From positions 186,001 through 250,000 of the forward strand of contig JAHCJZ010000003.1 of assembly GCA_026126025.1 (NCBI GenBank): DNA of 64,000 nt, written 5' to 3'. A program made the position numbers and the translations under genes. The DNA comes from Bauldia sp. (lineage in GTDB: Bacteria; Pseudomonadota; Alphaproteobacteria; Rhizobiales; Kaistiaceae). The notes under the pieces were generated by a model. That model searched no databases, was not told the origin of the DNA, and saw only the letters and a program-made list of their open reading frames with translations. Shown one piece after another: positions 24,254-53,458 of this stretch. Position 1 is the stretch's first letter. Each line of letters starts with the position of its first letter.

Positions 24254-24331
<78 letters not shown>

Positions 24332-24450: not shown

Positions 24451-26052
24451 TCACAGCTCCAGTCCGAAGTCCCGACCAGGGTGCTTCTTCCGCCATTCGC
24501 GCATTTCGCGGCGGATGCGGTCGGACTCCTTCTCGGGCGCGCGGGCGGGATCGGCGGCCTTGGCGAACTGATCCCTGGCCTTGGGCGTGTCCGCGAAGAA
24601 GCCGCCGGCATCGGCGATGGCGATGTCGCCGCCGGGACCGATGGACGGGGCGGCCGGCGGCTGGAGGACGATCGCGGCGGGCGCCTGCGCGAGGTCCTCC
24701 GCCGCGCGCGACCGCATGACGTTCTCGTTCTCCGACCGCAGGGTGTGATCGAGGAGGTCGGCTTCGAGCTGCTGGCGCTGCTGAAGGCTATGCAGGTCGA
24801 TCTGGTGCTCCTGCCGCACCGCGCCGATCGCGGCCTCGACCGACTTCCGGTTCTCGTCCTTGAGCTGGACCCGTTCCTTCTCCTGCGCCTTCTGGACGCG
24901 CTGCGTCAGCGCCTTGCCCGACAGCGCCATCATCAGCATGTCGCGCTTGCGCAGCGGGCCGGCGGAGGAGAGCAGGTCGCGGTGCTGCCGGATGAACACG
25001 GCGCGGTGCAGCGGTCCCCGCGGGCACCGCACCCCCAGCTCCTGCTGAACGTCAGCCTGCCGGATTTCCAGACGGTCCCAGGTCGGCCTCAGCTTGGCGT
25101 TCGCCTCGGCGCGCCGGCGTTCGGCGTTGGTTGCTGCTTGCGCCTTCAGGGCGGCCAGCTCGGCGCGATGCCGTTCCGCCATGTCGCCGCGCTGCTTCTG
25201 ATGCACCAGGCCGCGATAGCGGTCCTGGTCCGCACGGAGACGATCCTGCCGGGCCTTCTCGGCGCGCTCCTGCGCCTCGTATTGCCGGCGATTCAGCGAC
25301 ACCAAATCCTTGACCGGCTTCCCGCCGCGCCGAAGCTCGTTGTTGCGCACGCGCTGCTCGCAGCGGATGCCGCCGTGGTCGCGCTCGTACTGCTCCGCCC
25401 ATTGCGACAGCACGATCTTGTCGAAGGACACGCGCCGCGGCCGCGAGCCGTCCCGCTCGATGCGGTTGACCAGGACATGGATGTGCGGCTGCGGCTCGTC
25501 GAGGTGCTGGACGACTAGGGTCTGCAAGCCCTCCAGCCGCAGCGCCTTGAGGCTCGACTGCGCCGCGTCGAGCATTTCCTCGCGCGACGGATTCTCGTCC
25601 GGCGCCCATGACAGCGAATAGGCGAAGAGCGGTTTCCTGAGCTTCCGGCCGCGCTTGTGCGCTTCCTTCTCGCGGTAGCGCTCGAAGCTGGCATTCATCT
25701 GGCCGATCGCCTGCTCCGGCGTCTCGGCCTCCATGTTCATGATCTCGGTGAAGCCGACCCGGTAGGCGGTGCGCCGGTCGCCCTTGTCGTGCAGGGCATA
25801 GTCCCCGAACCGGCTGAACGCCTCCGTCTCGTAGTCGGCCTCCACCTGTTTGATCCAGGCGTCGTGGTCGGCCTTGTCCATGAGGTAGTAGGCGCCCGCC
25901 TCGCCGATCGAGATGCCTGACTGAGCGACGCGCGGGATCACGTTCTGGGCCCTCCGACAACATTCGCCGCAGGCGAATTTGTCCATCTTGCGAGGCGTTC
26001 TGCTCTCATGTCGCAAGCGTGCTCTCATGTATCCCCCGGCGTGAGTCAGCAT
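24451..26052 (-). CDS. MobA/VirD2-like relaxase
   Basis: A protein of about 533 residues with an N-terminal relaxase domain and a long charged C-terminal half. The metal-binding motif is the H-x-D-E-P-Q-P-H-I-H-V-L-V-N stretch near residue 190, preceded by the strand FAYSLSWAPDENP. Residues 250-420 are highly charged and coiled-coil-like. The enzyme would nick the element's transfer origin and lead the strand out. The ATG at 26052 has AGAGG five bases upstream; ATG at 26028 (after GGGGGA) and 25986 are alternatives. It is divergent from the coupling-protein gene; the 158-bp gap between them is the natural place for an oriT. Confidence 0.85.
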   Translation of the reverse strand: MLTHAGGYMRARLRHESRTPRKMDKFACGECCRRAQNVIPRVAQSGISIGEAGAYYLMDKADHDAWIKQVEADYETEAFSRFGDYALHDKGDRRTAYRVGFTEIMNMEAETPEQAIGQMNASFERYREKEAHKRGRKLRKPLFAYSLSWAPDENPSREEMLDAAQSSLKALRLEGLQTLVVQHLDEPQPHIHVLVNRIERDGSRPRRVSFDKIVLSQWAEQYERDHGGIRCEQRVRNNELRRGGKPVKDLVSLNRRQYEAQERAEKARQDRLRADQDRYRGLVHQKQRGDMAERHRAELAALKAQAATNAERRRAEANAKLRPTWDRLEIRQADVQQELGVRCPRGPLHRAVFIRQHRDLLSSAGPLRKRDMLMMALSGKALTQRVQKAQEKERVQLKDENRKSVEAAIGAVRQEHQIDLHSLQQRQQLEADLLDHTLRSENENVMRSRAAEDLAQAPAAIVLQPPAAPSIGPGGDIAIADAGGFFADTPKARDQFAKAADPARAPEKESDRIRREMREWRKKHPGRDFGLEL

Positions 26053-26178
26053 CAATCCTCTATCCAGAAGATTCTTTTCACAGACTCCAAATCAACATGC
26101 GTGCGCATTCGAGAACGATACTGAACATCGTAGCGCGTGGCAGAACGGTTACTTATGGAAGGTGCGTAAATATGTAGG

Positions 26179-26210: not shown

Positions 26211-27614
26211 TTGTCAGATTCGTTTCCACCACGCGGCTCGGGCACGCCCGGCCGGCACGAGACACCGCCCGACGCAGTCTGGGGCCACCCGCAGACGCTG
26301 AGCAAACGATGGGACTGGCGGCCCGGCAAGGTGCTGCTCGGTGAGGATGAGAACGGCCGGCCGATCGGAGACCCCGACCGCGACGGCACGCAAGGCAAGG
26401 GCGACGACCGGCACATCGTCACCAAGGCCGGCAGCCGGGCGGGCAAATCCTCGACCGTGCTGATTCCCAACCTCCTGCGCTATCCGGGCTCGGCCCTCGT
26501 GATCGATCCGAAGGGCGAACTGGCGCGCGCGACCGCTGCCGCGCGCCGCGCGATGGGGCAGGACGTGTTCGTCCTCGACGCGTTCGGCGCGTCGGGCAGG
26601 CCGTCCGCCGCCCACAATCCGTTCGACGAACTCGGCGGCGACAGCACCGATCCGGTGGCGGCCAATGCCGCCCAGTTCGCTGACGCACTGCTGGTGCCGA
26701 ACGAGCGCGACCCGCACTGGACCGATGCCGGCCGCAACCTGATCCGCGGCCTGGCGCTACACCTGCGCAGCACATCGGCGACGACGCCCACGCTGCGCGA
26801 CATCCGCCGGCTGGTGAACGGCACTCCGGCGGAGCTGGACGAGGTGTTCGGCGCGATGGCGGACTCCGAGGCATATGACGGCGTGGTGCGGAACATCGGC
26901 CGCGCCTTTCTCGGCAAGGCGGCCGCGAGCGAGCGTGAGCTTCAGGGCATCCTCTCCACCGTGCAGGAGCAGACCGCTCCGCTCGACGACATCGTCCACG
27001 TCACCGACCGCTCGGACTTCCGGCTGTCCGACCTCAAGGCCCGGCCGACCACGATCTATCTCGTGCTGCCGGGAATGCGGATGGGCACGCACTTCCGCTG
27101 GCTGCGCCTTGAGGTGCAGCAGGCGCTGATCGCCATGGAGCGCACCGCGTCGGCGCGGGACGCGCTGCCGGTGTGGTTCGTGCTGGAGGAGTTCGCCGCG
27201 CTCGGCTTCATGCGCTCGATCGAGACGGCGGCCGGCTTCATCGCCGGCTTCGGTGTGAAGCTGTGGACCGTCCTTCAGGACCTGAGCCAACTCCGCAACC
27301 TCTATCCGAAGTCCTGGGAGACATTCCTCGGCAATGCCGGCGTCATCCAGGCCTTCGCCAACGCCGACCACACCACCGCCGACTATTTGTCGAAGCGGAT
27401 GGGCACAACCACCGTGGTCGAGCGCCAGCAGGGGCCCACCTCCGGCCAAGCCATGCAGCACGGCGATCTCGGCGAGCGAGAGCACATCCGCTCCGTGCCG
27501 CTGCTCACGCCGGACGAGGTGACGCTGCACTTCGCCCGCGAGACGGGCCGCCAGCTCATTCTGGTTCCCGGCCGCCCCCCGATCTATCTCATGCGGAGCC
27601 GCCGCGATGACTAG
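26211..27614 (+). CDS. Type IV coupling protein (VirD4/TraG family)
   Basis: This 467-residue ATPase links the relaxase-DNA complex to a secretion channel. Walker A is GSRAGKSS (74-81), Walker B-like is VWFVLEEFAALG, and the family signature LIRGLALHLRS and QDLSQLRNLYPKSWETFLGNAG are present. It lacks the N-terminal transmembrane helices of classical VirD4; the next gene encodes a two-helix membrane protein and overlaps by 8 bp, so the membrane anchor may be supplied in trans. The start is a TTG with GGAGG five bases upstream. Confidence 0.9.
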   Translation: MSDSFPPRGSGTPGRHETPPDAVWGHPQTLSKRWDWRPGKVLLGEDENGRPIGDPDRDGTQGKGDDRHIVTKAGSRAGKSSTVLIPNLLRYPGSALVIDPKGELARATAAARRAMGQDVFVLDAFGASGRPSAAHNPFDELGGDSTDPVAANAAQFADALLVPNERDPHWTDAGRNLIRGLALHLRSTSATTPTLRDIRRLVNGTPAELDEVFGAMADSEAYDGVVRNIGRAFLGKAAASERELQGILSTVQEQTAPLDDIVHVTDRSDFRLSDLKARPTTIYLVLPGMRMGTHFRWLRLEVQQALIAMERTASARDALPVWFVLEEFAALGFMRSIETAAGFIAGFGVKLWTVLQDLSQLRNLYPKSWETFLGNAGVIQAFANADHTTADYLSKRMGTTTVVERQQGPTSGQAMQHGDLGEREHIRSVPLLTPDEVTLHFARETGRQLILVPGRPPIYLMRSRRDD

Positions 27615-28185
27615 GCAAGGCCGCTATCTCGACAAGGTCCGCCAGACGGACGCTTCGGGCCGCCTCATCGCCGCCGGTGTCCACTGGGAGGAGTTGCACC
27701 CGCTATCCACCTTCTGCCAGGCCCTGGCGGGCGTGATCATCGTCATCGTCGCACTCGCCACCTGGCTTGCGTTCAACTTGCGCCCGGACGCCGCCTGGCC
27801 GTCCGTCCTGTTCCTGACGATGGCCGGCCTTCTGTTCTTCGACGCCTGGCGGGCGCGGCGCGACCGGCTGCTGCTGTTCCATGAGGACGGCCGCATCACC
27901 ATGCCCTGGCGGCTGCGACCGTGGGGCTGGAAGAGGACTATACCGGGCGACCACGCCAACCTCGTCTCGATCGAGGCGGAAGCCGATCGGGACCATTGGT
28001 CCCGCGTGGTGATGTTCTCGCGCGGCGGCGACAAACTCTACCTGACCGGCGGCCGTCTTCACTCCGACACGTCGCGCAAGATCGCCGTGCAACTCACTCG
28101 CGCGCTGGCCGCGATCCGCGAGGCCGTCGCCGCTGGAGCGGACGCCCCCGCCGCAGGGGTCGAGGTAACGGTGCTGATCGACTGA
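27607..28185 (+). CDS. Two-helix membrane protein coupled to the coupling protein gene
   Basis: A 192-residue protein with two adjacent transmembrane helices (about 36-58 and 62-81), short N-terminal and longer C-terminal cytoplasmic parts. The C-terminal part (RLRPWGWKRTIPGDHANLVSIEAEADRDHWSRVVMF) looks like a small PH-like beta domain. Its ATG lies inside the last codons of the coupling-protein gene, so they are translated together. Because that coupling protein lacks membrane helices, this may be its anchor. This is inference from context; I do not recognise the family. Confidence 0.6.
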   Translation: MTRQGRYLDKVRQTDASGRLIAAGVHWEELHPLSTFCQALAGVIIVIVALATWLAFNLRPDAAWPSVLFLTMAGLLFFDAWRARRDRLLLFHEDGRITMPWRLRPWGWKRTIPGDHANLVSIEAEADRDHWSRVVMFSRGGDKLYLTGGRLHSDTSRKIAVQLTRALAAIREAVAAGADAPAAGVEVTVLID

Positions 28186-28226: not shown

Positions 28227-28577
28227 TTAAGCGGCCTCGTTCAGCTCTTCGGCCAGGGCGAACCGCAGCACCCGGCGGGTCTTCGCCGGGTCGGCCGGGT
28301 CCGTCGACGGACGCCGCAGGTCGGGCGTCAGATAGTCGATGAACCAGTAGACCTGATGGTCCGCCACGTCGAAGGCTCCGGTCTCGTGCTCGGCGTAGTC
28401 GTCGCCGGGCGTGAAGCCTTCATAGTTGCGCACCTGCTCGATGAAGTACGGTAGCGATATCCTCCCGAATGTCAGGATGAAGGTCTCGCTGGCCGCGACC
28501 GGGTCCGGGTCGGCCCGGAAGCGGTCGTTGAGGCCGCGGATGCGCGCGGCGCGGTGGAGGTGGGAAAGGGAGGTCAT
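28227..28577 (-). CDS. DUF3768-family protein
   Basis: A 116-residue soluble protein with the DUF3768 features IRGLNDRFRAD near the start, the strand TFILTFGRISLP, and DYAEHETGAFDVADHQVYWFIDYL. The family is common on alphaproteobacterial plasmids and integrated elements, usually near ArdC and other accessory genes, as here. No catalytic residues are known to me. Its start overlaps the stop of the upstream small gene (ATGA), so the two form an operon. Confidence 0.7.
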   Translation of the reverse strand: MTSLSHLHRAARIRGLNDRFRADPDPVAASETFILTFGRISLPYFIEQVRNYEGFTPGDDYAEHETGAFDVADHQVYWFIDYLTPDLRRPSTDPADPAKTRRVLRFALAEELNEAA

Positions 28578-28774
28578 TGCTGACCTCCTTCCACGTCGAC
28601 CTCACGGATGACGGTGCGGCCGGTGAGGGCGATTGCGTCCATACGCAGGCTGATGCCCTTGCCGTCGCTGTTTGCCCATCCGGCGCCGAGGCGGGTCCAG
28701 CGGGCCTTGTCGCCTTCACCGTTTACCTGCCAGACGATGTGGGTCGGGCGGTTGTGTTCGTTTTCCTTGGTCAT
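28574..28774 (-). CDS. Small conserved accessory protein, copy A
   Basis: A 66-residue protein: PTHIVWQVNGEGDKARWTRL, then GAGWANSDGKG-IS-LRMDAI and a short beta strand. It matches the 79-residue product at 29305 in length, order and key residues (P-S/T-H-I-x-W/Y, R-x-F/W-T, G-x-A/G-W-x-x-x-D-G-K/R-G). It probably folds as a small beta sheet. The family is often seen on mobile elements; function is unknown. It is co-translated with the DUF3768 gene. Confidence 0.6.
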   Translation of the reverse strand: MTKENEHNRPTHIVWQVNGEGDKARWTRLGAGWANSDGKGISLRMDAIALTGRTVIREVDVEGGQQ

Positions 28775-29304: not shown

Positions 29305-29544
29305 TTGGCAGCAGATGAAAGCGGAGTATCGAACAAACCTTCCCACATAGCGTATTTTGTCAAGGACGGCGCCGAACGCAGCTTCTGGACCGAATGCGGC
29401 GTCGCCTGGCCGCACAAGGACGGCAGGGGCTTCCGCCTCAAGCTCGATGCCGTGCCGGTCGGCGGCGTGATCGAGCTTCGCGTCAACGAGCCTTCGGCAC
29501 GCAAGCAGTCCGACAGTGATCCGACGAACACGGAGGCGCTGTGA
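29305..29544 (+). CDS. Small conserved accessory protein, copy B
   Basis: A 79-residue protein that is a clear paralogue of the one encoded at 28574: PSHIAYFVKDGAERSFWTEC, GVAWPHKDGRG, FRLKLDAVPVGG and VIELRV. It differs by a tail of 20 polar residues (EPSARKQSDSDPTNTEAL). The start is a TTG with TGAGG upstream. Its stop overlaps the GTG of the following secreted protein gene (GTGA), so the pair is co-translated. Function is unknown. Confidence 0.6.
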   Translation: MAADESGVSNKPSHIAYFVKDGAERSFWTECGVAWPHKDGRGFRLKLDAVPVGGVIELRVNEPSARKQSDSDPTNTEAL

Positions 29545-31754
29545 GGCTCCCGGCGGCCGTCGCCGCCGTCGCCCTTCTGTCGCTTCCGCTGCCCGCCTTC
29601 GCCGCCTGCACCGGCTCCCCGCACGCCTGGCAGGTCTTCGCCCTCACCGGCGGCAGCGCCGTCTATTGCGCCGACGGCAACAATTGGACCACGCTCGGCC
29701 TGAGTGTCGGCGACGGCACGGTAACCAATGCGAAGCTGGCCAACATGGCCGCCAACACCGTGAAAGGAAACAACACCGGCTCGCCCGCTGCACCGATCGA
29801 TCTCACCATGGCGCAGCTCCGCGCCATCCTCGGCTCGGGTACGGCCAATTCCACGACTTTCCTGCGCGGCGATGGCACCTGGGCTGCGCCAGCCGGGGAC
29901 AATCTTGGCAACCACACGGCCACAACGACGCTCGCCATGGGCAGCAACCTGCTGTCCTTCGCCGGCGGTGCCGGAGACAAGATAAACCTCAACGGCAACA
30001 CCTACGGCGTCGGCATCGAATCAAGCACGGTCACGCAATGGTCGCCGGCCAATTTTCGATGGCGTGCCGGTGGCACTTCGGCCACCACCGGCACCGAGAA
30101 GATGCTTCTCAACGGAACAACGTTGTCTGTCATCGGCGAGAACGCCGGGACGAACAACGTGCTCAACATTCTCAATCTGACGCGCACGTCATCCGGCACG
30201 TCGCCGGCAGCGGGTATCGGCGCCAGCCTTCAGTTCACGGTCGAGACGGCGGACGGCAATAACGAGGTCGGCGCGGCCATCCAGGCGGTGACCACCGATG
30301 TGACGGCCGCATCGGAGGATTTCGACATCCGCTTCCTGACCATGGTGAACGGCGCCGCGGCGTCCGAGGTGATGCGCCTGACCTCCGACAATCAGATGGG
30401 TCTGGGTACCACCAACCCCAATGCTTCCGCGATCATGGACCTCACCTCCACGACGCTCGGTTTTCTGCCGCCGCGGATGACGACTGCCCAGGTGAACGCA
30501 ATTGCATCACCTGCCAACGGCCTGGTCGCCTATGACTCTTCCCTGCACCAACTGAAGCTTCGCGCGAACGGCGCATGGGTGTCACTGGCGGCCGGCGCCG
30601 GACTGACCGACGGCGACAAGGGCGACATCACGGTGTCCGGCTCGGGCGCGACCTGGAGCATCGATAGCAACGCCGTCGTCACCGCCAAGATCAACAACAG
30701 CGCCGTCACGAACGCCAAGCTCGCCAACATGGCAGCGAACACGGTGAAGGGGAACAACACCGGCTCTGCCGCTGCGCCGGTCGATATGACCATGGCGCAG
30801 CTACGCGCAATCCTCGGCTCCGGCACGCCGGGGTCGGGCAACTATCTGCGCGGCGACGGCACGTGGGCGACGCCGGCAGGCGGGGGCAGCACCAACTATC
30901 AGGCGTTCACGGCGACCGGGACATGGAACAAACCTGCCGGCCTGACCGGCAACGAAGTCGTGATGGTGATGGCCTGGGGCGCCGGCGGGGCCGGCGGCGG
31001 GCGAAGCTCTGTCAACAATCACGGCGGCGCCGGTGGCGGCGGTGGGGCGTGCGTTCTCGGCCACTTCCGCGCCGGCGACCTCGGCAGCAGCGTCGCGGTG
31101 ACGGTTGCCGGACAGACCGCCGGCGGCACCGGCAACGGTGCCAACGGCGGCAACACCACATTCGGATCGCATCTCACGGCCTATGGCGGCGGTGGCGGTA
31201 CAGGCGGCACCTCGAATGGCTTCGGGGGCACTTTCGGTGGTGGCGGCGGAGGAACGCTTGGCGCGGGTGCTTTGAAAACGCCAGGAAAACCAAACGAGAC
31301 GCTCAGCTTCATCGTCCCTGACGCCATCTACCAGTGCGAGGATGAAGACACCTGCGAATATGTCGATCTTGTCATCCATCAGAAGGATGCCGCTGCGGGC
31401 GGCGGGCGATCGGGGCTCGTCTCAGGCAATGACGCCGAATATCTGGATGGCGGCCTTTCTCACTGGGGCGGCGGCGCCGGCGGAGGTGCATACAGCAGCG
31501 CTGGCGGCGTGGGCGGTTCGAGCTACTGCGGCGGCGGGGGCGGCGGCGCCGGCGGCAGCAGCAGCAACAAGGCGGGCGGCACATCGGTCTTGGGCGGTGC
31601 GGGCGGTGCCGGTAAAAGCAATGCCGCGACCGGTGCCGGCACCGCCGGTAGCGCGCCTGGCGGCGGCGGTGGGGGTGGCTATCGCACGACTTCCGGCACG
31701 GCCAACGGCGGCGCCGGTGCCCGCGGCGAGGTTCGCGTGTGGGTCCTGCCGTAG
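29541..31754 (+). CDS. Secreted tail-fibre-like, Gly-rich repeat protein
   Basis: A 737-residue protein with a Sec signal peptide (about residues 1-22, ending AFA). Two near-identical tail-fibre modules follow, near 70-115 and 390-435: NAKLANMAANTVKGNNTG, then MAQLRAILGSGT and LRGDGTWA-PAG. Between them is a beta-rich region with FDIRFLTMVNGAAASEVMRL and MDLTSTTLGFLPPRMT, typical of phage receptor-binding proteins. The C-terminal 250 residues are a GGGG-rich domain ending in RGEVRVWVLP, as in phage tail Gly-rich domains, with a non-glycine insert holding two Cys pairs. A phage-type fibre with a signal peptide suggests a secreted or surface adhesin. The start is a GTG. Confidence 0.75.
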   Translation: MRLPAAVAAVALLSLPLPAFAACTGSPHAWQVFALTGGSAVYCADGNNWTTLGLSVGDGTVTNAKLANMAANTVKGNNTGSPAAPIDLTMAQLRAILGSGTANSTTFLRGDGTWAAPAGDNLGNHTATTTLAMGSNLLSFAGGAGDKINLNGNTYGVGIESSTVTQWSPANFRWRAGGTSATTGTEKMLLNGTTLSVIGENAGTNNVLNILNLTRTSSGTSPAAGIGASLQFTVETADGNNEVGAAIQAVTTDVTAASEDFDIRFLTMVNGAAASEVMRLTSDNQMGLGTTNPNASAIMDLTSTTLGFLPPRMTTAQVNAIASPANGLVAYDSSLHQLKLRANGAWVSLAAGAGLTDGDKGDITVSGSGATWSIDSNAVVTAKINNSAVTNAKLANMAANTVKGNNTGSAAAPVDMTMAQLRAILGSGTPGSGNYLRGDGTWATPAGGGSTNYQAFTATGTWNKPAGLTGNEVVMVMAWGAGGAGGGRSSVNNHGGAGGGGGACVLGHFRAGDLGSSVAVTVAGQTAGGTGNGANGGNTTFGSHLTAYGGGGGTGGTSNGFGGTFGGGGGGTLGAGALKTPGKPNETLSFIVPDAIYQCEDEDTCEYVDLVIHQKDAAAGGGRSGLVSGNDAEYLDGGLSHWGGGAGGGAYSSAGGVGGSSYCGGGGGGAGGSSSNKAGGTSVLGGAGGAGKSNAATGAGTAGSAPGGGGGGGYRTTSGTANGGAGARGEVRVWVLP

Positions 31755-31759
31755 AAGAA

Positions 31760-31779
31760 GCCGCGGCTCACGCCGCGGC
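31760..31779. terminator. Hairpin between convergent genes
   Basis: GCCGCGGC, a TCAC loop and GCCGCGGC form a perfect 8-bp stem just after the tail-fibre-like gene. It overlaps the last codons of ardC, which end in Ala codons and use one arm. No T-run follows, so termination efficiency is uncertain. Confidence 0.5.
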
Positions 31780-32664
31780 CTCCGTTTCATGGGGCTGTAA
31801 CCCATTCAAGAAGTCAGCCGCCCGCTGCGCGTGCGCGGCGGCCGTGAAGATCGCTCGGCTGTCGCCTTTCAGAACCTTGAGCCAGGACGCGATATAAGAA
31901 GCGTGCTCCTCGCGCGTTGCCGGCATCAGGTCGAGGTCGGCGCAGACGAACGCTGCGCCAAGCTCCGCGACCAGTTCTTCCATGGCATAGCCTTCATCGC
32001 CCCAACGCTTGCGGCCGAGGTCGCGGCCAAGGCGGTCCGGGTGCTTCGTCCAGTGCGTCGCCTCATGGGCGAGCGTCGCACAGTAGGATTCCGCGTCGCG
32101 GAAAGCCTCGAAGGGCGGCATGAGGATGACGTCGTCCACAGCGCGGTAAGCGGCCATGTTGCCGCCATGCCGGATGATTGCGCCGGTCGCGGCGAAGAAG
32201 GCTTCTGCCGTCGCAATGCGCTGCACCGGATCGAGCCGCGACGCGGGTTTGCCGTAGAAGTGCTTCGGCAGTCCGTCGACCTGCTCGACGTTGAACACTG
32301 TGTAGCCCTTGAGGAAGGGGATATCGCGCTCCTCCTCAGCGCCGGTGTCCGGGTCGGTCTCGGTGCGGGAGAAGGTCGAGGCGTAGACGACCGTGCTGCC
32401 GCGCTCGCCCTTGCGCACATGTCCGCCGAGTTCCTGGGCTTGCTTGAAGGTGATCCAGATAGGTGCGGCGTGGCCGGCACCGACCGCGGCCGCCCACAGC
32501 ATCAAGACGTTGATGCCGCGATAGGGGATGCCGTTGGATCGCAGCGGCCGTGTGATGCGCCCGGCCGCGTGCTCGGCATTCCAGGGCTTGTGCCAGGGCC
32601 GGACGCCCTGTTCCAGGTCGGCCACGATCTGCGCGGTGATGCGCTCATAAACATCTGTTCTCAT
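31768..32664 (-). CDS. ardC: ArdC-like antirestriction / ssDNA-binding zincin protein
   Basis: A 298-residue protein with an N-terminal ssDNA-binding domain (YERITAQIVADLEQGVRPWHKPW, then SNGIPYRGINVLMLW and FLKGYTVFNVEQVDGLP) and a C-terminal zincin-like metallopeptidase domain with HEATH near residue 212 and EELVAELGAAFVC. ArdC proteins coat the incoming strand and protect mobile DNA from restriction in a new host. The ATG at 32664 has GGAGAAAG upstream; the longer open frame is not supported. It fits the transfer functions of this element. Confidence 0.9.
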   Translation of the reverse strand: MRTDVYERITAQIVADLEQGVRPWHKPWNAEHAAGRITRPLRSNGIPYRGINVLMLWAAAVGAGHAAPIWITFKQAQELGGHVRKGERGSTVVYASTFSRTETDPDTGAEEERDIPFLKGYTVFNVEQVDGLPKHFYGKPASRLDPVQRIATAEAFFAATGAIIRHGGNMAAYRAVDDVILMPPFEAFRDAESYCATLAHEATHWTKHPDRLGRDLGRKRWGDEGYAMEELVAELGAAFVCADLDLMPATREEHASYIASWLKVLKGDSRAIFTAAAHAQRAADFLNGLQPHETEAAA

Positions 32665-33184
32665 TGCTCTTTCTCCAGTCTGAAAGCGGGTTGCGCCATG
32701 CAACCCGACTAGCCGGAGCGGCAATGAGCGGGGGTTGGCCGTCATAGGCCGGAAAGCGTGGGGGTGGGGCGGGCCGGAGGCCGGAGGCCGACTACACGGC
32801 CCGCGCTTTCCGCCCGAAGGGCTTGGCCTTGACGGCCGGGGGGCCGCAGGCCCCATCCTTCAATTCAGGAGAAGCGCAGTCGCAGGAGCGTCAGCATCGC
32901 GGCCGCCGGCACGGCGGGACGCGGGATCGTCTGGGGTGACGAGACCGGAATCAAAGGCAGCCGCAGGAGCGAGGTCTGCCGAGCGGGACCGACTGCCTCC
33001 GGCGAGGAGCGCCGCATCGCCCTTGCGCGAGGGATCGTCACCGGATGGCCGGGACGCCGCGCATCCGCGGGAGCGGATCTGGCGGCGGCCCGGTGAGGCC
33101 GAAGGCCGAGTAGAGCCCGACCGCCGAAGGCGGGCGCGCCACGACAGCGCAGCCGGCGCTGGCTGAAACTATGCTAGCTTTAAA
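32665..33184. other. GC-rich interval without a supported gene
   Basis: About 520 bases between the divergent ardC and HEPN-motif genes. The left two-thirds is made of GGCCGG, GGCCTTGACGGCC and CGCAGGAGCG words; the last 60 bases turn AT-rich and probably contain the promoter of the rightward gene. No convincing coding frame, RNA or inverted-repeat array is visible. Confidence 0.4.
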
Positions 33185-34558
33185 TTGACCTACATTGTTC
33201 ACAATAAATTGCTGGATGGACCCGCCGTGCAATCAGGTCAGATCATCACTGAATTCAAGAAACGGACGCTTCACATCGATCTTCACGAAATGTCTTTGGT
33301 ACAAAACAAAATTAGTGACAATAAAATCCTGTATCGTGGCAACGGCTACATCGCACAAACCAGTGCTGACGTTCTTACCTTTCGCCTATATCCCAACGAA
33401 ACAAACAACACAGACTTCGCCTCCAGTTTCAATCACCTGAATGCGACGAAGGCGGGAGAGCTCTATTCAAACGAATCTTACTACACTCTCAGTGGCATAG
33501 CGGCTGACGGTGCGGTGTGGAAGTGTGACCAGGTTCTACCTGCGTGCGACTGGAGCACAAATCACAGCCATCCCGTGGTCCACGGTAGCCTCTCAACGAT
33601 AGTCGTTGGCGACCTGTCACCTCACCCATCGAAATTCGTGTTGCACTTCTTCGAGAAGGCCGATCTTCCCGTGCCGACCAGCCAAGCGACGTTTACAGCC
33701 GCCGGCTACCAATTCCATGTCGAGAAGAGCGATGATAGCTTCATCGTCGGAGTGAATTCCGAGACTGTGCTCCCGGACTATTTCGACGTTCGCGTAGAGG
33801 AAGCCCTGCGGTTCCTTCTGGCACAGCCCGTCGCCGTGCGCGCTCTAATTCATCCGGGCTGCGTAGCCTTAAGATCGAAGCCGGCGAACTCGTCCGAGGT
33901 CCGATTGGGTCCACCAATCTCTCGCGGGACTGCCGCTTTCCACGAGCACTCCTGGGACCTTCTTGGCGCGTATCTCGCCTTTGTCGCTCGCGAAGCCAAG
34001 GAAACAGGTTGGCATCCGTGCACGGGCTATCTGCATATGGCTCAACAGGCCAGCGCGAGCTCCTTGGACGTCTGGGCCACAGGACTCGGGGTAGCGGTCG
34101 AAGGCTTAGCTAGTCTTGTTGATGTCGAACGAGCCGACGGACGAGACACGGAAAGGCAGCAGCTAGAGCAACTCCAGAAATTCATCGTTGGGCAGATCGC
34201 AGGCCATAGCCAGTTCGACGTGTTTGTTGATCGAATTCGGGGGCTCGTGAGAGGGCTGACCTCGGTGCGGGCGATCGATCGGATGAAGTGGCTGGCTGAC
34301 AACGGCGGAGCCAATCCTGCCCTCATCGATGCTTGGAGGAGCCTCCGCAATCGGAGCGTCCATCCGATAGGACGCGATTTCGACATTGCATCGCTCGACT
34401 TTCAGAAGGTCGTTGACGAGCTGCATAGCGTGACGACGCTCCTCTACCAGATCGTGTTTCATCTGATCGGATATCGCGGCCCGCACACCGACTACGCCTC
34501 ACATGGATTCCCTGAGACAGTCTATCCGCCGCTCTCGCGGACGGCAGAGGCAGGGTAA
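33185..34558 (+). CDS. HEPN-motif protein, possible abortive-infection factor
   Basis: A 457-residue soluble protein. Residues 1-200 look beta-rich and may be a sensor domain (ITEFKKRTLHIDLHEMSL, YYTLSGIAADGAVWKCDQVLP). The C-terminal 200 residues are helical and contain LRNRSVHPIGRDFD near 390-403: the R-x4-H pattern of HEPN RNases sits in AWRSLRNRSVHP, the usual local context. The layout (large N-terminal domain plus C-terminal HEPN) recalls ApeA-type phage-defence proteins, but I cannot confirm that family. Base composition is visibly less GC-rich than the neighbours, indicating a separate origin. The start is uncertain; TTG at 33185 or GTG at 33227 are possible. Confidence 0.55.
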   Translation: MTYIVHNKLLDGPAVQSGQIITEFKKRTLHIDLHEMSLVQNKISDNKILYRGNGYIAQTSADVLTFRLYPNETNNTDFASSFNHLNATKAGELYSNESYYTLSGIAADGAVWKCDQVLPACDWSTNHSHPVVHGSLSTIVVGDLSPHPSKFVLHFFEKADLPVPTSQATFTAAGYQFHVEKSDDSFIVGVNSETVLPDYFDVRVEEALRFLLAQPVAVRALIHPGCVALRSKPANSSEVRLGPPISRGTAAFHEHSWDLLGAYLAFVAREAKETGWHPCTGYLHMAQQASASSLDVWATGLGVAVEGLASLVDVERADGRDTERQQLEQLQKFIVGQIAGHSQFDVFVDRIRGLVRGLTSVRAIDRMKWLADNGGANPALIDAWRSLRNRSVHPIGRDFDIASLDFQKVVDELHSVTTLLYQIVFHLIGYRGPHTDYASHGFPETVYPPLSRTAEAG

Positions 34559-43618: not shown

Positions 43619-44479
43619 TCAAGCCGCCTTTCGTTGACTGAATCGGCGAAGGAAAAGGCGGGCGGTTATCAGTGTTATCTGAAGCCTGAAAGTCGCATCT
43701 TCTTCTTCGGATAGACCTGGATGCCCACCGTGCGGGTGCATCCGGCTCATTAGCCCCTGAACGTACTGGGGCTTCTGGTTGTTGGCGTTCCACTCGTTGT
43801 AATCCGCGAGCAAGAACGGCGGCTGCACGCGAGCGCCAAGGAAATCGCGCTTTGCCCTGCTGTCATCGCTGCCGACATAGCCGAGAGCGACGGCGATCTC
43901 GTTTAGATAGCTCTCATAGAAATTGCGAAGCTCGCCGTTCGCGGACGACCATTCGCCCCTCTGAAATGCCGACACCGCTTGTTTCAGATGCCCCTTGGCA
44001 ACGGTGAATCCGCTGTCATCCAGAAGGGCGATGACTTCGCTCTCTGCCTCCCGAAAATCCAATCCAGGAATGTCTTCCGGCAGCATCCGGACAAGCGTCA
44101 GAATCTTCTTGGTCGCTTCGCCATCCCAAGAAAACCTAGAGGCAACACTGACCTCCGTTTCGACAACCTCGAAGCCATCGAACCGAAGGCCCGCGACCAG
44201 CTTCTTCCACGATACTGAATCTCGGCCCGCCTCGGGAGCGGTGATTGCGGTTTCGATCAACGCCCGATCAAGCGAGACACGGCCATTCTCGGTCATCACG
44301 GTAAGCTCTTCGTCGCAGGCGAGTTTCGCCCAGCTCGCAACGCGCGCGGGCTTGCTGGATGCGCTGCATCGTCCATCAATGCCCCATTGAACCTCCAAGA
44401 CTTCCATATCGCTGTGCGAATTGAAGTCGGCGACCACCTCGGCCGCGGCAACGATTGTCATGCGATTGAACTCGCTCAT
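43619..44479 (-). CDS. Helical protein of the defence operon (possibly HEPN-like or a specificity adaptor)
   Basis: A 286-residue protein with an N-terminal beta/alpha part (1-110) and a helical C-terminal half. The conserved-looking part is FQRGEWSSANGELRNFYESYLNEIAVALGY and HPHGGHPGLSEEEDATFRLQITLITARLFLRRF. The helix arrangement recalls HEPN-type proteins, but I see no R-x4-6-H pair, so RNase activity is not supported. Its ATG overlaps the methyltransferase stop codon, so the products are made in fixed ratio. It may be a structural or recognition subunit. Confidence 0.55.
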   Translation of the reverse strand: MSEFNRMTIVAAAEVVADFNSHSDMEVLEVQWGIDGRCSASSKPARVASWAKLACDEELTVMTENGRVSLDRALIETAITAPEAGRDSVSWKKLVAGLRFDGFEVVETEVSVASRFSWDGEATKKILTLVRMLPEDIPGLDFREAESEVIALLDDSGFTVAKGHLKQAVSAFQRGEWSSANGELRNFYESYLNEIAVALGYVGSDDSRAKRDFLGARVQPPFLLADYNEWNANNQKPQYVQGLMSRMHPHGGHPGLSEEEDATFRLQITLITARLFLRRFSQRKAA

Positions 44480-47253
44480 GCCGCCCCCGCCCTGCGTTTC
44501 TTTGCCGGCACCGGCGACACAATCATTTTGGTGTAAAGATCGAACAGCTTTTCCAGCCGCTCCGTGTCGTTGCGGAAGCGGCGGCCGACATAGATGCGCT
44601 CGAGCACCTCATCGTTGTGCTCGTGCGCCGCGCGCAGATCGGCCGGCATGTTCTCCGGGTCGTAGAGATCGGCGATGGTCGCCGGGAAATGCGCCTCGCG
44701 CGCCAGCAAAATGTCTTCGGCGCAGCGGGTCAGGTCGGCCTTGTTCTTCTCGGTGAGCGTCGGGACCGGGAAGGTGTTCCAGCCGAGTGTGTTGGAATAG
44801 CGATAGTCAGTCTTCAGTTTGCCGCAGACGGTGCCGATCCAGACAAGATGCAAGCGCGATGCGATCAGTGCCATTGTCCAGAGCGGCGCGTCATAGAGTG
44901 CAAATGCTAGGTTGGACACGATTGTGCCCTTGGGAAGTATCCCGCATGGAAGGAATGGACGCCGCTCTGACGACGCGCTCGGAACAACTACCGTCGAAGC
45001 GCATTCTCGATGAGGGCGGTAGGCAAACTGGAATGGATACCGAGCAAGCTCGACAGTTTCTGCACGATCACTTTCCGCCCTGAATTTCGCTACGCTGGCG
45101 ACCTTGGAGGCGATGGTGCCATTCGTCTTGGCGGTGGTTTCGTCCTCGGGATTGATCCAAAGGCACCATCGCTCGATGCCATTGATGAACTCTCTCGACC
45201 CAACATATCGGCGAACAAACTGTTCAAACTCATCGCCCTCTTTTCGTATCGCTTCCCTCTCCGAAGGTAGGACGGTGAAGTGGCCACCGTCGATAGGCTG
45301 GTTGCCGAACGTCATGGTCGACAACGCCGATATGGGTTTTGACGACTTTTCTACCTCGATGTTCCTGCCGGGAACCAGGTAGGCATTGATATTCTCCGCC
45401 TCACGCGCGGTTACCTCTCCTGTTTGCGTGAGCGAATAGAGAGTCCTGACTCGTCCGGCCCGACGGGAAATGCCGACGATAGCAACTGTGACGCCGGCAT
45501 TGTGGCTAGCAAGATTGGCCCATTTGAATGAAGTATGGGCGAAAGCGATTTCGTGTCCGGTCTTGAAGATGAGTGGCCAAAGGATAGGAACCTGCTTTCC
45601 TTGGCAGATGGAGTTTGTGGCCACAAAGGCGGCGACAGAAGCGGTCTGTGTGCCGTAGTCGGCCGCCTTCATGAACCAGCCCGCCACGTAGTCGAGCGAC
45701 TTCCAGCTTTTCACTCGCCGGTCGAAGATCGTCTTGAGATCGGACTTGTGATCGTCAGATTGTCCTTGGCTTCCGAGATATGGCGGATTCCCGCAGATAT
45801 AGGTTTCCCCACCCTGATTCTCGAAGTCGATCTGCGCCTGATCCAGTGGCGTGTGAAACAAGTCCTCTGCCTGCAACTTCACACCCGTTCCGGTCGGCGG
45901 GCAGATGCTCAGCCAGTCGAGCCGCAGGGCATTGCCGCAGGTGATCCAGTTCTGCGCGTCGAGCGGCAGGAAGTCCTGCAAGGCTTCCTGCTGCCCACGA
46001 TAGAGCACGTCGCACTGAAACTCCGCGATGATGAGCGCCAACCGCGCAACCTCGGCCGGAAAGTCGCGCAACTCGATGCCTCGGAAGTTCGTGAGCGGGA
46101 TTTCGGTACGGCGGTCGGCCTCGCCGCGCCGCCTGTTGATCTCGGCCTCGATCTCCCGCATCGCCTTGTAGGCGATGACAAGGAAATTGCCTGAGCCGCA
46201 GGCAGGGTCGAAGACCCTGATCTTCGCCATGCGGTTGCGCAGGTTCAAGAGCTTGCGGGAATTGTCGCCCGCTTCTTCCAGCTGCGCCCGCAAATCGTCG
46301 AGAAACAACGGGTTCAACACTTTCAGGATGTTCGGCACGGACGTGTAGTGCATGCCGAGCGCGCCGCGCTCCTCGTCCTCGGCGACGGCCTGGATCATCG
46401 ACCCGAAAATGTCCGGGTTGATCTTCGTCCAGTCGAGGCTGCCGATGTGCATGAGGTAGGAGCGCGCGATCTTGGAAAAATGCGGCGCGTCCACGCTGCC
46501 GGAAAACAATTCGCCGTTCACATAAGGAAAGGCGTCGGCCCATCGCGGAACGCCAGCGCTCGCGCGGTCCTCGCGCTTGGTATTCATGGCGCGGAACAAC
46601 TCGCCGATCACTTCATGGGTGTTGGACGAATCCTTGGCGCTCATGCGCTCGACGGTCTGCGTGAACAGGCCGATGCCGTGGAAAATGTCGGTGCGCTCGG
46701 CGAAGAAGCAGAAGATCAGCCGCGCCATGAAATGATTCATGTCGTGGCGGCGCGCGGCGGTGCCCCAATCGGGGTTATCTTTCAGAAGCTCGACATAGAG
46801 CCGGTTCATGCGGCTCGTGGCGCGGATATCAAAGGAGCTTTCGCGGACCTGCTTGACGGTGGTGATGCCGGCGAGCGGCAGGAAGAATCCGAAATGATCG
46901 GGGAAGTCGGCATAGGAACAGGCGACAGTTTCGCCGGTATCCAGGTCTTCAGCCTCGAAGTCCGCGCCGTCGGTGGCGAGGATGAAGCGCGCCTTCGCCT
47001 TCGCCGTGGCGGGGCTGGCTTTCAGCGCGGCCAAGGTCTTCGTCACCGTGCCCGGCGCGGCGACGGCGATATGGATGTGATTGCGTTGCAGGACGCCGCC
47101 CAGATCGGAGCTGTTCGACGCTCCGGCCCGCAGCTTCTTGATCGTGGTTTCCTTGTTGCCGAAGGCTCGCAGAAAGGCGAACGGGAACTCGGCGGCGTCA
47201 AACGGTTGCTCGGCGAGCGCCGATATCGCTTCCTCAATCTCCACTGCGTTCAT
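44476..47253 (-). CDS. MmeI-family adenine methyltransferase with a degenerate nuclease domain
   Basis: A 925-residue protein that follows the MmeI type IIL restriction-modification enzyme along its length: helical spacer (HYTSVPNILKVLNPLFLDDLRAQ), methylase motif I FDPACGSGNFLVIAYK (near 350), motif IV GNPPYLGS (near 486), target-recognition region (RYVGSREFINGIERWCLWI) and C-terminal helices (DLYDPENMPADLRAAHEHND). In MmeI the first 150 residues hold a D-x9-E-x-K nuclease centre; the matching region here (NHIHIAVAAPGTVTKTL, ARFILATDGADFEAEDL) lacks that pattern. It therefore probably methylates but does not cut. Confidence 0.88.
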   Translation of the reverse strand: MNAVEIEEAISALAEQPFDAAEFPFAFLRAFGNKETTIKKLRAGASNSSDLGGVLQRNHIHIAVAAPGTVTKTLAALKASPATAKAKARFILATDGADFEAEDLDTGETVACSYADFPDHFGFFLPLAGITTVKQVRESSFDIRATSRMNRLYVELLKDNPDWGTAARRHDMNHFMARLIFCFFAERTDIFHGIGLFTQTVERMSAKDSSNTHEVIGELFRAMNTKREDRASAGVPRWADAFPYVNGELFSGSVDAPHFSKIARSYLMHIGSLDWTKINPDIFGSMIQAVAEDEERGALGMHYTSVPNILKVLNPLFLDDLRAQLEEAGDNSRKLLNLRNRMAKIRVFDPACGSGNFLVIAYKAMREIEAEINRRRGEADRRTEIPLTNFRGIELRDFPAEVARLALIIAEFQCDVLYRGQQEALQDFLPLDAQNWITCGNALRLDWLSICPPTGTGVKLQAEDLFHTPLDQAQIDFENQGGETYICGNPPYLGSQGQSDDHKSDLKTIFDRRVKSWKSLDYVAGWFMKAADYGTQTASVAAFVATNSICQGKQVPILWPLIFKTGHEIAFAHTSFKWANLASHNAGVTVAIVGISRRAGRVRTLYSLTQTGEVTAREAENINAYLVPGRNIEVEKSSKPISALSTMTFGNQPIDGGHFTVLPSEREAIRKEGDEFEQFVRRYVGSREFINGIERWCLWINPEDETTAKTNGTIASKVASVAKFRAESDRAETVELARYPFQFAYRPHRECASTVVVPSASSERRPFLPCGILPKGTIVSNLAFALYDAPLWTMALIASRLHLVWIGTVCGKLKTDYRYSNTLGWNTFPVPTLTEKNKADLTRCAEDILLAREAHFPATIADLYDPENMPADLRAAHEHNDEVLERIYVGRRFRNDTERLEKLFDLYTKMIVSPVPAKKRRAGAA

Positions 47254-51318: not shown

Positions 51319-52497
51319 CTACGATATGAGTGCGGTCAGTCTGGCCTCCCAAGCGGCGACCGCCGTCCGCATCTCGCCCATGTAGCTGTGGCGGTTGTAG
51401 ACGGCCGCAACACCGGAAATAGTGCCTGAGACGTGATTGAGCAGCTTCTCGGTGACGTGCACGGGGATGCTCAAGGCCGCTAGTTGTGTGGCGAAGGTCC
51501 GGCGGAGGTCGTGCAAAGTCCAGTGCGGCAGTAGCTTGTCCCCGTGACCCTGCTCGGCCAACGCAGTCGCAATGGCCGCATCCAGGGCATCCTTCGCCTT
51601 GCCCCATCCGTTGAAGATTGTCGTCTCCCTACCCCTGGCGATCGGCCGGGCGGCAGGGAAGACGAACTCCGATGTCCGGGGCAGACGCTCAAGGATGCCG
51701 GCAACGAGGTCGCCGTAGGGAAACGTGTGCGCCCGCCGGTTCTTGGTGGCGGCCGCGGGAAGGGTGATCGTCCGGTTGGCCGTGTCGATCCAATCCCATT
51801 GCAGCGTCGCGATTTCACCGCGCCGCTGCCCGGTCAGGGCAATGAGCTGAACAAGCGGCCCGAACGGGAAGGGCTGACCGCGAGCGGCCCGAAGGACGGT
51901 CACGAGCTCCGCGTCGGACAATGCGCGCTCCCGTTCGGATTTGACCGGCGCAAGCTGAACCTGGTCGCAGGGGTTCGCGTGAACGTAACCGCGGCGCATG
52001 GCCCACCGGAAGAACACCTTGACCGCCACATAGGCATGGTGGCGCTCCGACGGCGTGTCCTTCAGACGATCGAGCCGTCTCGTCACGTCGCCTGACCGAA
52101 TCTCGGCCATCTGCATCCGCTCCAGGGACGAGAAGTGCCGGTTGAGCAAACGGCGGTAGCCAGCGACGGTCCGGGGCTTGTTCCGCCCATCGCACATTTC
52201 GAGGAACTCGGCCGTGGCCTTCTCCCACGAAATGGTGGCCGGCCGCGTGCGGCCGAGGGTGGCTTCCGCAAGCAGCCGTTTCGCTTCGGCGCGAGCGTCG
52301 GTCAGCGACACGACGGGATAGCGGCCGATCGAGATGCGACGTCGGTCGGCACCGTGCATGACGATGAACGTCTTCGTCCCGCCCTGGGAGACGCGAACGC
52401 CGAAGCCGGGTAGGCTCTCGTCCCAATGTGTTTGCTGGCCGCTTCCGGGCGGACTGAGCGCCCGAAGGGCAAGGTCTGTCAGGCGAAAGGGGGCCAT
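51319..52497 (-). CDS. Site-specific tyrosine integrase of the element
   Basis: A 392-residue P4-type integrase with an N-terminal arm-binding domain (DESLPGFGVRVSQGGTKTFIVMHG, ISIGRYPVVSLTDARAEAKRLL), a core-binding domain (120-210) and a catalytic domain with Arg in LTGQRRGEIATL, HDLRRTFATQLA, and LLNHVSGTISGVAAVYNRHSY containing the Tyr nucleophile. ATG at 52497 is the natural start; the frame stays open upstream through the attachment site to 53046. It lies 145 bases from attR and is the enzyme that inserts the element into tRNA-Phe. Confidence 0.93.
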   Translation of the reverse strand: MAPFRLTDLALRALSPPGSGQQTHWDESLPGFGVRVSQGGTKTFIVMHGADRRRISIGRYPVVSLTDARAEAKRLLAEATLGRTRPATISWEKATAEFLEMCDGRNKPRTVAGYRRLLNRHFSSLERMQMAEIRSGDVTRRLDRLKDTPSERHHAYVAVKVFFRWAMRRGYVHANPCDQVQLAPVKSERERALSDAELVTVLRAARGQPFPFGPLVQLIALTGQRRGEIATLQWDWIDTANRTITLPAAATKNRRAHTFPYGDLVAGILERLPRTSEFVFPAARPIARGRETTIFNGWGKAKDALDAAIATALAEQGHGDKLLPHWTLHDLRRTFATQLAALSIPVHVTEKLLNHVSGTISGVAAVYNRHSYMGEMRTAVAAWEARLTALIS

Positions 52498-52498
52498 T

Positions 52499-52519
52499 CT
52501 TAGGCTCGCTATAGGCTCT
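52499..52519 (+). repeat. Candidate integrase arm-type site, right end
   Basis: Two TAGGCTC words at 52501 and 52512, 11 bp apart, match the pair at 24367/24378 in the same orientation. The site lies directly before the integrase start codon, so integrase bound here could also repress its own gene. Confidence 0.5.
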
Positions 52520-52641
52520 TTCGAGGGGCGCGTAGGGGCGTTTCCGGACGTTCTCCTATGTCGGAAAAATCGGGCAAAAAGCAAGTCCATAGAATGGCTT
52601 ATGAGATACCCTGCGCAACCCTGAGAAGGCGCGGAAAAAGC

Positions 52642-52688
52642 CTGAAAATCCGCGTGTCGGTGGTTCGATTCCGCCCCTGGGCACCATT
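52642..52688 (+). other. attR: right attachment site of the integrated element
   Basis: Exact 47-bp copy of the tRNA-Phe 3' part at 24285-24331. It lacks the 5' half of the tRNA, so it is not a functional tRNA gene. The base before it differs from the tRNA (GCCTGAAAA here, GACTGAAAA there), which fixes the left limit of the crossover. Confidence 0.92.
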
Positions 52689-52747
52689 TGTTCTCCTCAT
52701 CAGAGATCATAGAGACCCAAACCAGCCACGGCGATCGGCGGTGGGGG

Positions 52748-53458
52748 CTAGCTGTGGTCCCCGGCTCCAGAAATCGCGCCCACACCGATGCCGCCTGCCA
52801 TCCCGCCGCCACCACTGCCGCTGCCTTCTCCCCCGGCGCCCCGGCCGCCGCCCCCTTGCCGATCTTCCCTGCCACGCTCGCCGCCTCCCCGTCCGCCCTG
52901 GCCGGACGGGCGCGTCGGCCCCTGCTCGGGAATGGCGAGGTCGGACGGGATCGGGTCGATGTCGAGCGCCTTCCGGATGAAATCGCGGAGTGAGATGACG
53001 AGGTCGCGGGTGCGCACGGGGCGGCCGGCGACGAGATCGTGCGCAACCTGGTCGGCGAGCCGGACCTGCTCCTCCGTTCCGAGCAGGATGATGTCGGAGA
53101 GGGATGCCTCGACCGCGTCGCGGATGCGGCGGCGGCGCTCGGACAGGTCGCCGTCGCCGGACGTTTCGGGCAGGGCCGCGGACGACTCCTCCTCGCTCGC
53201 CGGACCAGCCGGCCGGTGCCGGTCGCGCCGATGGCTGGGGTCGACGATCAAGTCGCCGGTAAACGAGCCGCCCAGGACCTTGTAGGCTGCGATCAGCGTG
53301 CGGAGGCGCTCGTTGATCTGACGGTTGAGGCGCTCGCGGCGCCGCTGGATGGTGACCATGAGAAGGAGGCGCAGGCCGACGCCGATGAGCGCCAGCAACG
53401 CCAGGCCGATCAGCGTCGTCAGCACGCCCTGCCAGGAGCCAAAATCAAAACCGCGCAA
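52748..53458 (-). CDS. Membrane-anchored protein with a Gly-rich tail
   Basis: A 236-residue protein with one N-terminal transmembrane helix (about residues 10-35, GVLTTLIGLALLALIGVGLRLLLMV), then a charged region (ERLNRQINERLRTLIAAYKVLGGSFTGDL, RRIRDAVEASLSDIILLGTEEQV) and a C-terminal tail of about 50 residues rich in GGG, RGG and GSG. Proteins of this layout are often found near tRNA-associated insertion hot spots, but I do not know their function. It is the only gene between attR and the relic attachment site at 53648. Confidence 0.65.
   Translation of the reverse strand: MRGFDFGSWQGVLTTLIGLALLALIGVGLRLLLMVTIQRRRERLNRQINERLRTLIAAYKVLGGSFTGDLIVDPSHRRDRHRPAGPASEEESSAALPETSGDGDLSERRRRIRDAVEASLSDIILLGTEEQVRLADQVAHDLVAGRPVRTRDLVISLRDFIRKALDIDPIPSDLAIPEQGPTRPSGQGGRGGGERGREDRQGGGGRGAGGEGSGSGGGGMAGGIGVGAISGAGDHS

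Follow-up and report, generated by a model that had tools for sequence, protein, structure and literature searches.

A predicted Sec-exported mosaic fibre protein built from phage tail-fibre parts and encoded on an integrative mobilizable element of Bauldia sp.

Introduction

Why should a mobilizable element encode a protein that is composed of phage tail-fibre modules and begins with an export signal? The question is raised by a gene of Bauldia sp. (Rhizobiales) that lies in a 64,000-nucleotide stretch of contig JAHCJZ010000003.1 (hereafter the window; all coordinates refer to it). An initial annotation, made from the letters of the DNA, had noticed the combination and proposed that the secreted product could be a surface adhesin, a decoy receptor or a mating-contact protein. 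As developed below, the product is best explained as a Sec-exported, modular mosaic fibre adhesin made from phage tail-fibre parts and spread within the order by mobilizable elements, a reading that we consider likely. The question then becomes what such a fibre might serve for, and several answers of unequal probability are weighed.

The fibre gene and its carrier element

The reading frame originally delimited at 29541-31754 (+) is indeed open and intact at these coordinates, and encodes a protein of 737 amino acids from a GTG start with GGAGG directly 5' of it. Its third-position GC (0.80) is like that of the neighbouring genes, and its GC content by codon position fits a real gene. In the tetranucleotide GTGA, this GTG overlaps with the TGA that ends a gene for 79 amino acids (29305-29544, +; TTG start assumed), for which a Pfam search returned no match. 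This gene is one of two window copies of a family, called 'small' here, of 60-80-amino acid proteins whose genes recur throughout the order next to those of relaxases and coupling proteins; the other copy (66 amino acids) occupies 28574-28774 (−). With the fibre protein as query, a sequence search of the PDB gave no matches, a search of a plasmid collection gave a single partial match, and the full-length search within the family matched Bauldia and one unrelated fibre.

The gene resides in a 28.36-kb integrative element delimited by a 47-bp perfect direct repeat. The left copy (attL, 24285-24331, +) comprises the 3' end of the tRNA-Phe gene (24254-24329) plus two bases, and the right copy (attR, 52642-52688, +) adjoins a tyrosine integrase at the right end of the element (51319-53046, −; Phage_integrase, 1e-16; Arm-DNA-bind_3, 4e-12), whose true start is probably nearer 52600. 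Between them are found a relaxase with a MobA/VirD2-like nuclease domain (24451-26055, −; PF03432, 1.5e-19) and a VirD4/TraG-type coupling protein (26211-27614, +; PF02534, 1.3e-66) in which no obvious N-terminal membrane anchor was seen. The end of the coupling-protein gene is overlapped by a hypothetical gene (27607-28185, +) that recurs beside some relatives of the coupling protein, and a DUF3768 protein is encoded at 28227-28577 (−; PF12599, 2.4e-15). On the other side of the fibre gene lies an ArdC-type antirestriction protein (31768-32856, −; PF08401, 8.5e-43; PF18818, 8.5e-52). Two further tyrosine recombinases are present inside the element, and its other cargo includes an MmeI-type IIG restriction-modification enzyme (44476-47253, −). 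No mating-pore gene was found in the element, several of whose genes are without a Pfam match.

Judged by its gene content, with 47-bp repeats, an integrase, a relaxase of its own and no pore genes found, it qualifies as an integrative mobilizable element. The carrier that had been postulated at the outset can thus be given att boundaries, a relaxase, a coupling protein and ArdC. Elsewhere in the same genome, a trb-type system (VirB8, TrbL, CagX, TrbI, VirB4 and TraG) is encoded on contigs C16 and C1, the only two contigs of the genome with PF03135 (VirB4/TrbE), so that a possible helper for the element exists. As a separate observation, the protein encoded at 34733-36208 matches the candidate defence family PDC-M36A in PADLOC (E 7e-19) and stands beside an unknown 457-amino acid gene (33185-34558), with which it possibly forms a defence pair.

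An export signal followed by a conserved head

Residues 1-21 of the fibre protein (MRLPAAVAAVALLSLPLPAFA; 29541-29603, +) are predicted, by inspection of the sequence and by conservation, to be a Sec signal peptide cleaved after A21. They precede a head of 31 residues (residues 23-53; 29607-29699, +) with two cysteines, C23 and C43: CTGSPHAWQVFALTGGSAVYCADGNNWTTLG. In 18 of the 18 head-bearing proteins that were inspected, the window protein and that of the relative G009 (see below) included, the first head cysteine directly follows an AxA-type site, with a hydrophobic stretch ahead of it; this conservation strengthens the early view that the signal peptide is a clear one. Neither an outer-membrane anchor nor a lipobox or an exporter was identified for the fibre protein.

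The head search of viral contigs gave no match, and that of genome contigs matched a Bauldia metagenome-assembled genome (MAG) only. Weak N-terminal matches at L088-L091 were set aside, as no forward reading frame with a head was seen there (one orientation was read per locus). A clear signal-peptide-like start was present in only one of 90 viral reading frames; this sole case among the viral homologues is a fibre-type protein of 1710 amino acids encoded on a viral contig (L076, 7187-12319).

Shaft and glycine-rich tip

The head is followed by a phage-fibre repeat with viral homologues (residues 54-119; 29700-29897, +), and a second repeat occupies residues 381-448 (30681-30884, +). The presence of two tail-fibre repeats was correctly recognized at first sight, whereas their description as almost identical was too strong: they are rather similar, with 78% identity in protein and 82% in DNA (29713-29843 against 30697-30827). 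The middle region between them (29898-30680, +) contains the motifs GLGTTNP and GFLPPRMT, common in phage fibres, and a match to PHROG 863 (E 1e-17) spans residues 287-575, which supports the tail-fibre identity of the protein. The middle is receptor-binding-like, as described at first. The closest relatives of the fibre body are viral tail-fibre proteins. The structural model of residues 1-448 is poor (pLDDT 45), being confident only at residues 311-350, and was given no weight.

The C-terminal residues 449-737 (30885-31751, +) contain 32% glycine. Their AlphaFold model, computed from an alignment of 18 sequences (pLDDT 69, pTM 0.72), finds as its top match in the PDB the fibre of cyanophage Pam3 (7ypx; Z 16.6 over 188 residues, rmsd 2.8) and next the tail tip of mycobacteriophage Bxb1 (9d93; Z 14.9), and has strong matches among viral predicted structures. 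The fold common to the window protein, Pam3 and Bxb1 extends over the whole Gly-rich tip. The Gly-rich domains of ALK/LTK reach Z 7-8, far below the phage matches, and this value was read as a shared arrangement only. As modelled, the Gly-rich end clearly has a phage tail-tip fold, in agreement with the tail tip domain first proposed, though Pfam Gly_rich_2 matches it below cut-off only. Gly-rich relatives were found by BLAST without composition correction, a result biased by composition. The Pam3 fibre and the Bxb1 tail tip belong to virions, whereas the window protein is predicted to be exported and has no virion genes nearby. Within the tip, a non-glycine insert (residues 578-618; 31272-31394, +; partly of low confidence in the model) is present as initially described, but it holds one cysteine pair (C599, C605) instead of two; the other cysteines of the protein are C23 and C43 in the head, C504 and C663.

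Absence of virion genes from the surroundings

A phage-like body calls for the question of whether the gene is what is left of a prophage or tailocin, its hydrophobic N-terminus merely resembling a signal peptide. The kinship of the fibre body with viral tail-fibre proteins speaks for such an origin. The surroundings argue against it: among 25 of the 27 PHROG families assigned to 56 neighbouring proteins of nine loci, the window and eight related ones, there was no capsid, portal, terminase, tube, tape-measure or baseplate family, in line with the first impression that no other phage structural gene is near. The PHROG families of these neighbours include integrases, invertases and methyltransferases, and Pfam identifies relaxases, coupling proteins and resolvases. 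Also opposed to a remnant are the conservation of signal peptide and head in 18 of 18 proteins and the absence of the head from the viral contigs searched, and L076 is the only viral homologue seen with a clear signal peptide. The homologues that share signal peptide and head lie outside prophage tail operons, and the same head recurs in other loci of mobilizable type. A remnant is therefore highly improbable, as the initial annotation had already maintained.

A closely related element and exchange of the tips

The closest relative is provided by a Bauldia MAG (G009), one contig of which begins inside a related element. Identity to the window amounts to 73% for the coupling protein, 67% for DUF3768, 85% for the small gene and 80% for the head. 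The body of the G009 fibre is a different one, ending in a C-terminal S74 chaperone with an SDxxxK motif (SDSRLK); the flanks and the head have thus been kept and the binding end changed. The next gene of the G009 operon overlaps the fibre gene by 4 bases and encodes a second protein, which is secreted and Gly-rich. A match to the distal subunit of PDB 6f45 (E 1e-4) lies at the end of the G009 fibre; we take 6f45 to be the S16-type long tail fibre gp37 with its Gly-rich adhesin gp38. The likeness to gp37/gp38 consists in the Gly-rich protein gene standing directly 3' of the fibre gene. Unlike in S16, both G009 proteins have predicted signal peptides and are not part of a virion, and, unlike in S16 and in G009, where fibre and Gly-rich part are separate proteins, the window protein joins the two in one chain. 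The second protein of the operon has an N-terminal domain (TVTxDEHGxCKxxTNN) that was also observed in secreted proteins of other alphaproteobacteria (L199 of G584, L200 of G410, L203 of G425), where mobility genes were absent from the vicinity; an S74 gene is present at two of these loci as well.

Of 297 genomes sampled from the order, 11 contain the head according to its profile; they belong to 11 genera and include the window's own. Behind this one head, the tips are exchanged between relatives: S74 in G009, G216, G123 and G104; Lcl_C, above cut-off, in G123, G011, G183 and G210; Gly-rich domains in the window, G011 (Gly_rich_2 above cut-off), G291 and G079; and Cys-rich or collar-like ends, which were judged by eye. 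In G011, several secreted fibre proteins, some of them paired, are encoded within about 35 kb of contig C19 (L189-L191), an element-like region that has ArdC and a coupling protein, with resolvase-like genes nearby.

Association of the head with mobility genes

A relaxase, coupling protein, ArdC or 'small' gene is present in the fetched stretch at 10 of the 13 head loci of the order, and the count rises to 12 of 13 when integrases are included. The 20 control windows, of 20 kb each and hand-picked on head-bearing contigs at positions away from the heads, contain none of the former genes, and one of them contains an integrase (10/13 against 0/20, Fisher p 3e-6). As some of the head loci had gone into building the mobility HMMs, a separate test was made of the eight loci that had no part in defining the head, giving 5/8 (p 6e-4) with HMMs that had been iterated over all fetched loci, these eight included. 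Six loci with S74 proteins lacking the head (L152-L157) showed no mobility genes. Fibre homologues with a signal peptide do therefore occur beside relaxase- or ArdC-type genes in the order, where integrative mobilizable or conjugative elements are the main carriers of the fibre gene.

The picture differs in the class-wide sample, in which relaxase, coupling-protein or ArdC genes were present in two of 15 fetched stretches and an integrase in one more; the link to mobile elements thus belongs to the order and not to the family of heads as a whole. Several of the class-wide stretches are chromosomal clusters of multiple head-bearing genes. Clusters of this kind, in which the secreted fibres have the head and in part S74 or Lcl tips, were noted in small-genome alphaproteobacteria (L261 and L262 of G507, L259 of G546, L258 of G691 and L255 of G676), G507 having 18 head copies, and could represent adhesin arrays of a predator type.

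Relation to known secreted fibres and adhesins

The nearest published kind is that of the mosaic adhesive trimer (MAT) fibres of Bdellovibrio bacteriovorus, encoded on a predator's chromosome and reported to serve in prey recognition (Caulton et al. 2024, PMC10769870). Both kinds combine a signal peptide, a conserved N-terminal part, a phage-fibre-like shaft and exchangeable C-terminal tips. Some MAT tips are S74 domains with the SDxxxK motif, which reads SDSRLK in the G009 relative, and others are C-type-lectin-like or other binding domains; here, S74, Lcl_C and Gly_rich_2 are found behind one head, and a Gly-rich tip in the window. MATs possess a conserved beta-rich domain of ~130 amino acids right after the signal peptide (PMC10769870). 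The window protein has instead the 31-residue two-Cys head, with fibre modules ~38 residues after the predicted cleavage site and the first phage-fibre repeat starting at residue 60 at the latest. As this leaves no room for a domain of ~130 amino acids, the protein, compared by description, is not filed as a MAT. A further difference is that the head fibres of the order ride mobilizable elements. By analogy, the best reading is that the window protein would work like a MAT with a different, short head.

Another point of comparison is TraN of the mobilizable island SGI1, which supports SGI1 transfer through a hybrid pore (PMC5389848). TraN is an adhesin which, like the fibre protein, has a signal peptide and is encoded on a mobilizable element; it differs in belonging to PF06986, in working with an F-type pore and in having no phage-fibre modules (PMC5389848). 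With the window protein, Pfam at E up to 0.1 returned no TraN (PF06986), VirB5 or PilV family, a search that leaves room for remote similarity.

Possible functions of the fibre

The early proposal of a secreted fibre finds support in the conserved export signal, the tail-fibre modules and the location on a mobilizable element. In the mechanism that we favour, the protein would be exported by Sec and, after crossing the outer membrane, displayed at the surface. The two-Cys head may form a disulfide and stay at the cell end, the repeats and the middle would make up a shaft that trimerises as in phage fibres, and the Gly-rich domain would be the tip that binds a surface. A conserved head with tips exchanged between relatives is what would be expected if varied surfaces are recognised, and the swapping of tips, as read from sequence, favours an adhesin.

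What the adhesion would be for is less certain. The fibre might serve the host cell in general attachment or biofilm formation and be mere cargo of the element, an explanation that we rate somewhat short of an even chance. It accords with the chromosomal clusters of several head-bearing genes in other alphaproteobacteria, with the ordinary restriction-modification gene that the element also carries, and with the generic binding nature of Lcl-type and Gly-rich tips; what argues for something beyond random cargo is that in the order the gene stands repeatedly next to backbone genes of mobilization, and that it overlaps the 'small' gene. These same features are what suggests a contact function in mating, a variant of the adhesin reading that differs from it in purpose: a donor would display the fibre to hold or select recipients during mobilization of the element by way of a helper type IV secretion system. 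The gene is situated among the mobilization genes, where it overlaps one of backbone type, and in the order the association is with genes for relaxases and coupling proteins. The same genome encodes a trb-type secretion system, and SGI1 with its own TraN adhesin offers a precedent (PMC5389848). Against this stand the other inspected elements of the order that have a related coupling protein and showed no such fibre, the related head proteins of other alphaproteobacteria in chromosomal clusters devoid of mobility genes, and the fact that no TraN, VirB5 or PilV family match was seen. We rate a role in mating as possible but rather unlikely.

It has also been considered that fibres, released or kept at the surface, occupy the host cell's own phage receptors and so act as decoys or interfere with infection. 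Tip and shaft are phage receptor-binding modules, and defence-like genes are carried on the same element; Lcl, S74 and Cys-rich tips behind a shared head suggest instead anchored adhesins of varied specificity, and we regard a decoy as improbable. An exported fibre adhesin of modular, mosaic construction thus remains the preferred reading.

Significance

Our literature search, with most subscription journals outside its scope, did not turn up any account of mobilizable elements with such fibres. The locus presents a design similar to that of the MATs, with another head and on mobilizable elements, in which phage receptor-binding parts are predicted to circulate among bacteria as exported proteins. 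A mobile element may in this way supply its host cell with a grappling fibre, which makes the locus a testable case of mobile elements shaping cell-to-cell contact. Such contact is a step of conjugation, and recipient specificity in elements of this kind is poorly known. That the mobilizable elements of the order carry phage-type fibres, exported by the donor, which choose or hold recipients for conjugation is a proposal we hold to be doubtful; if true, it would mean that an element travelling by the secretion system of a helper contributes an exchangeable recognition part of its own.
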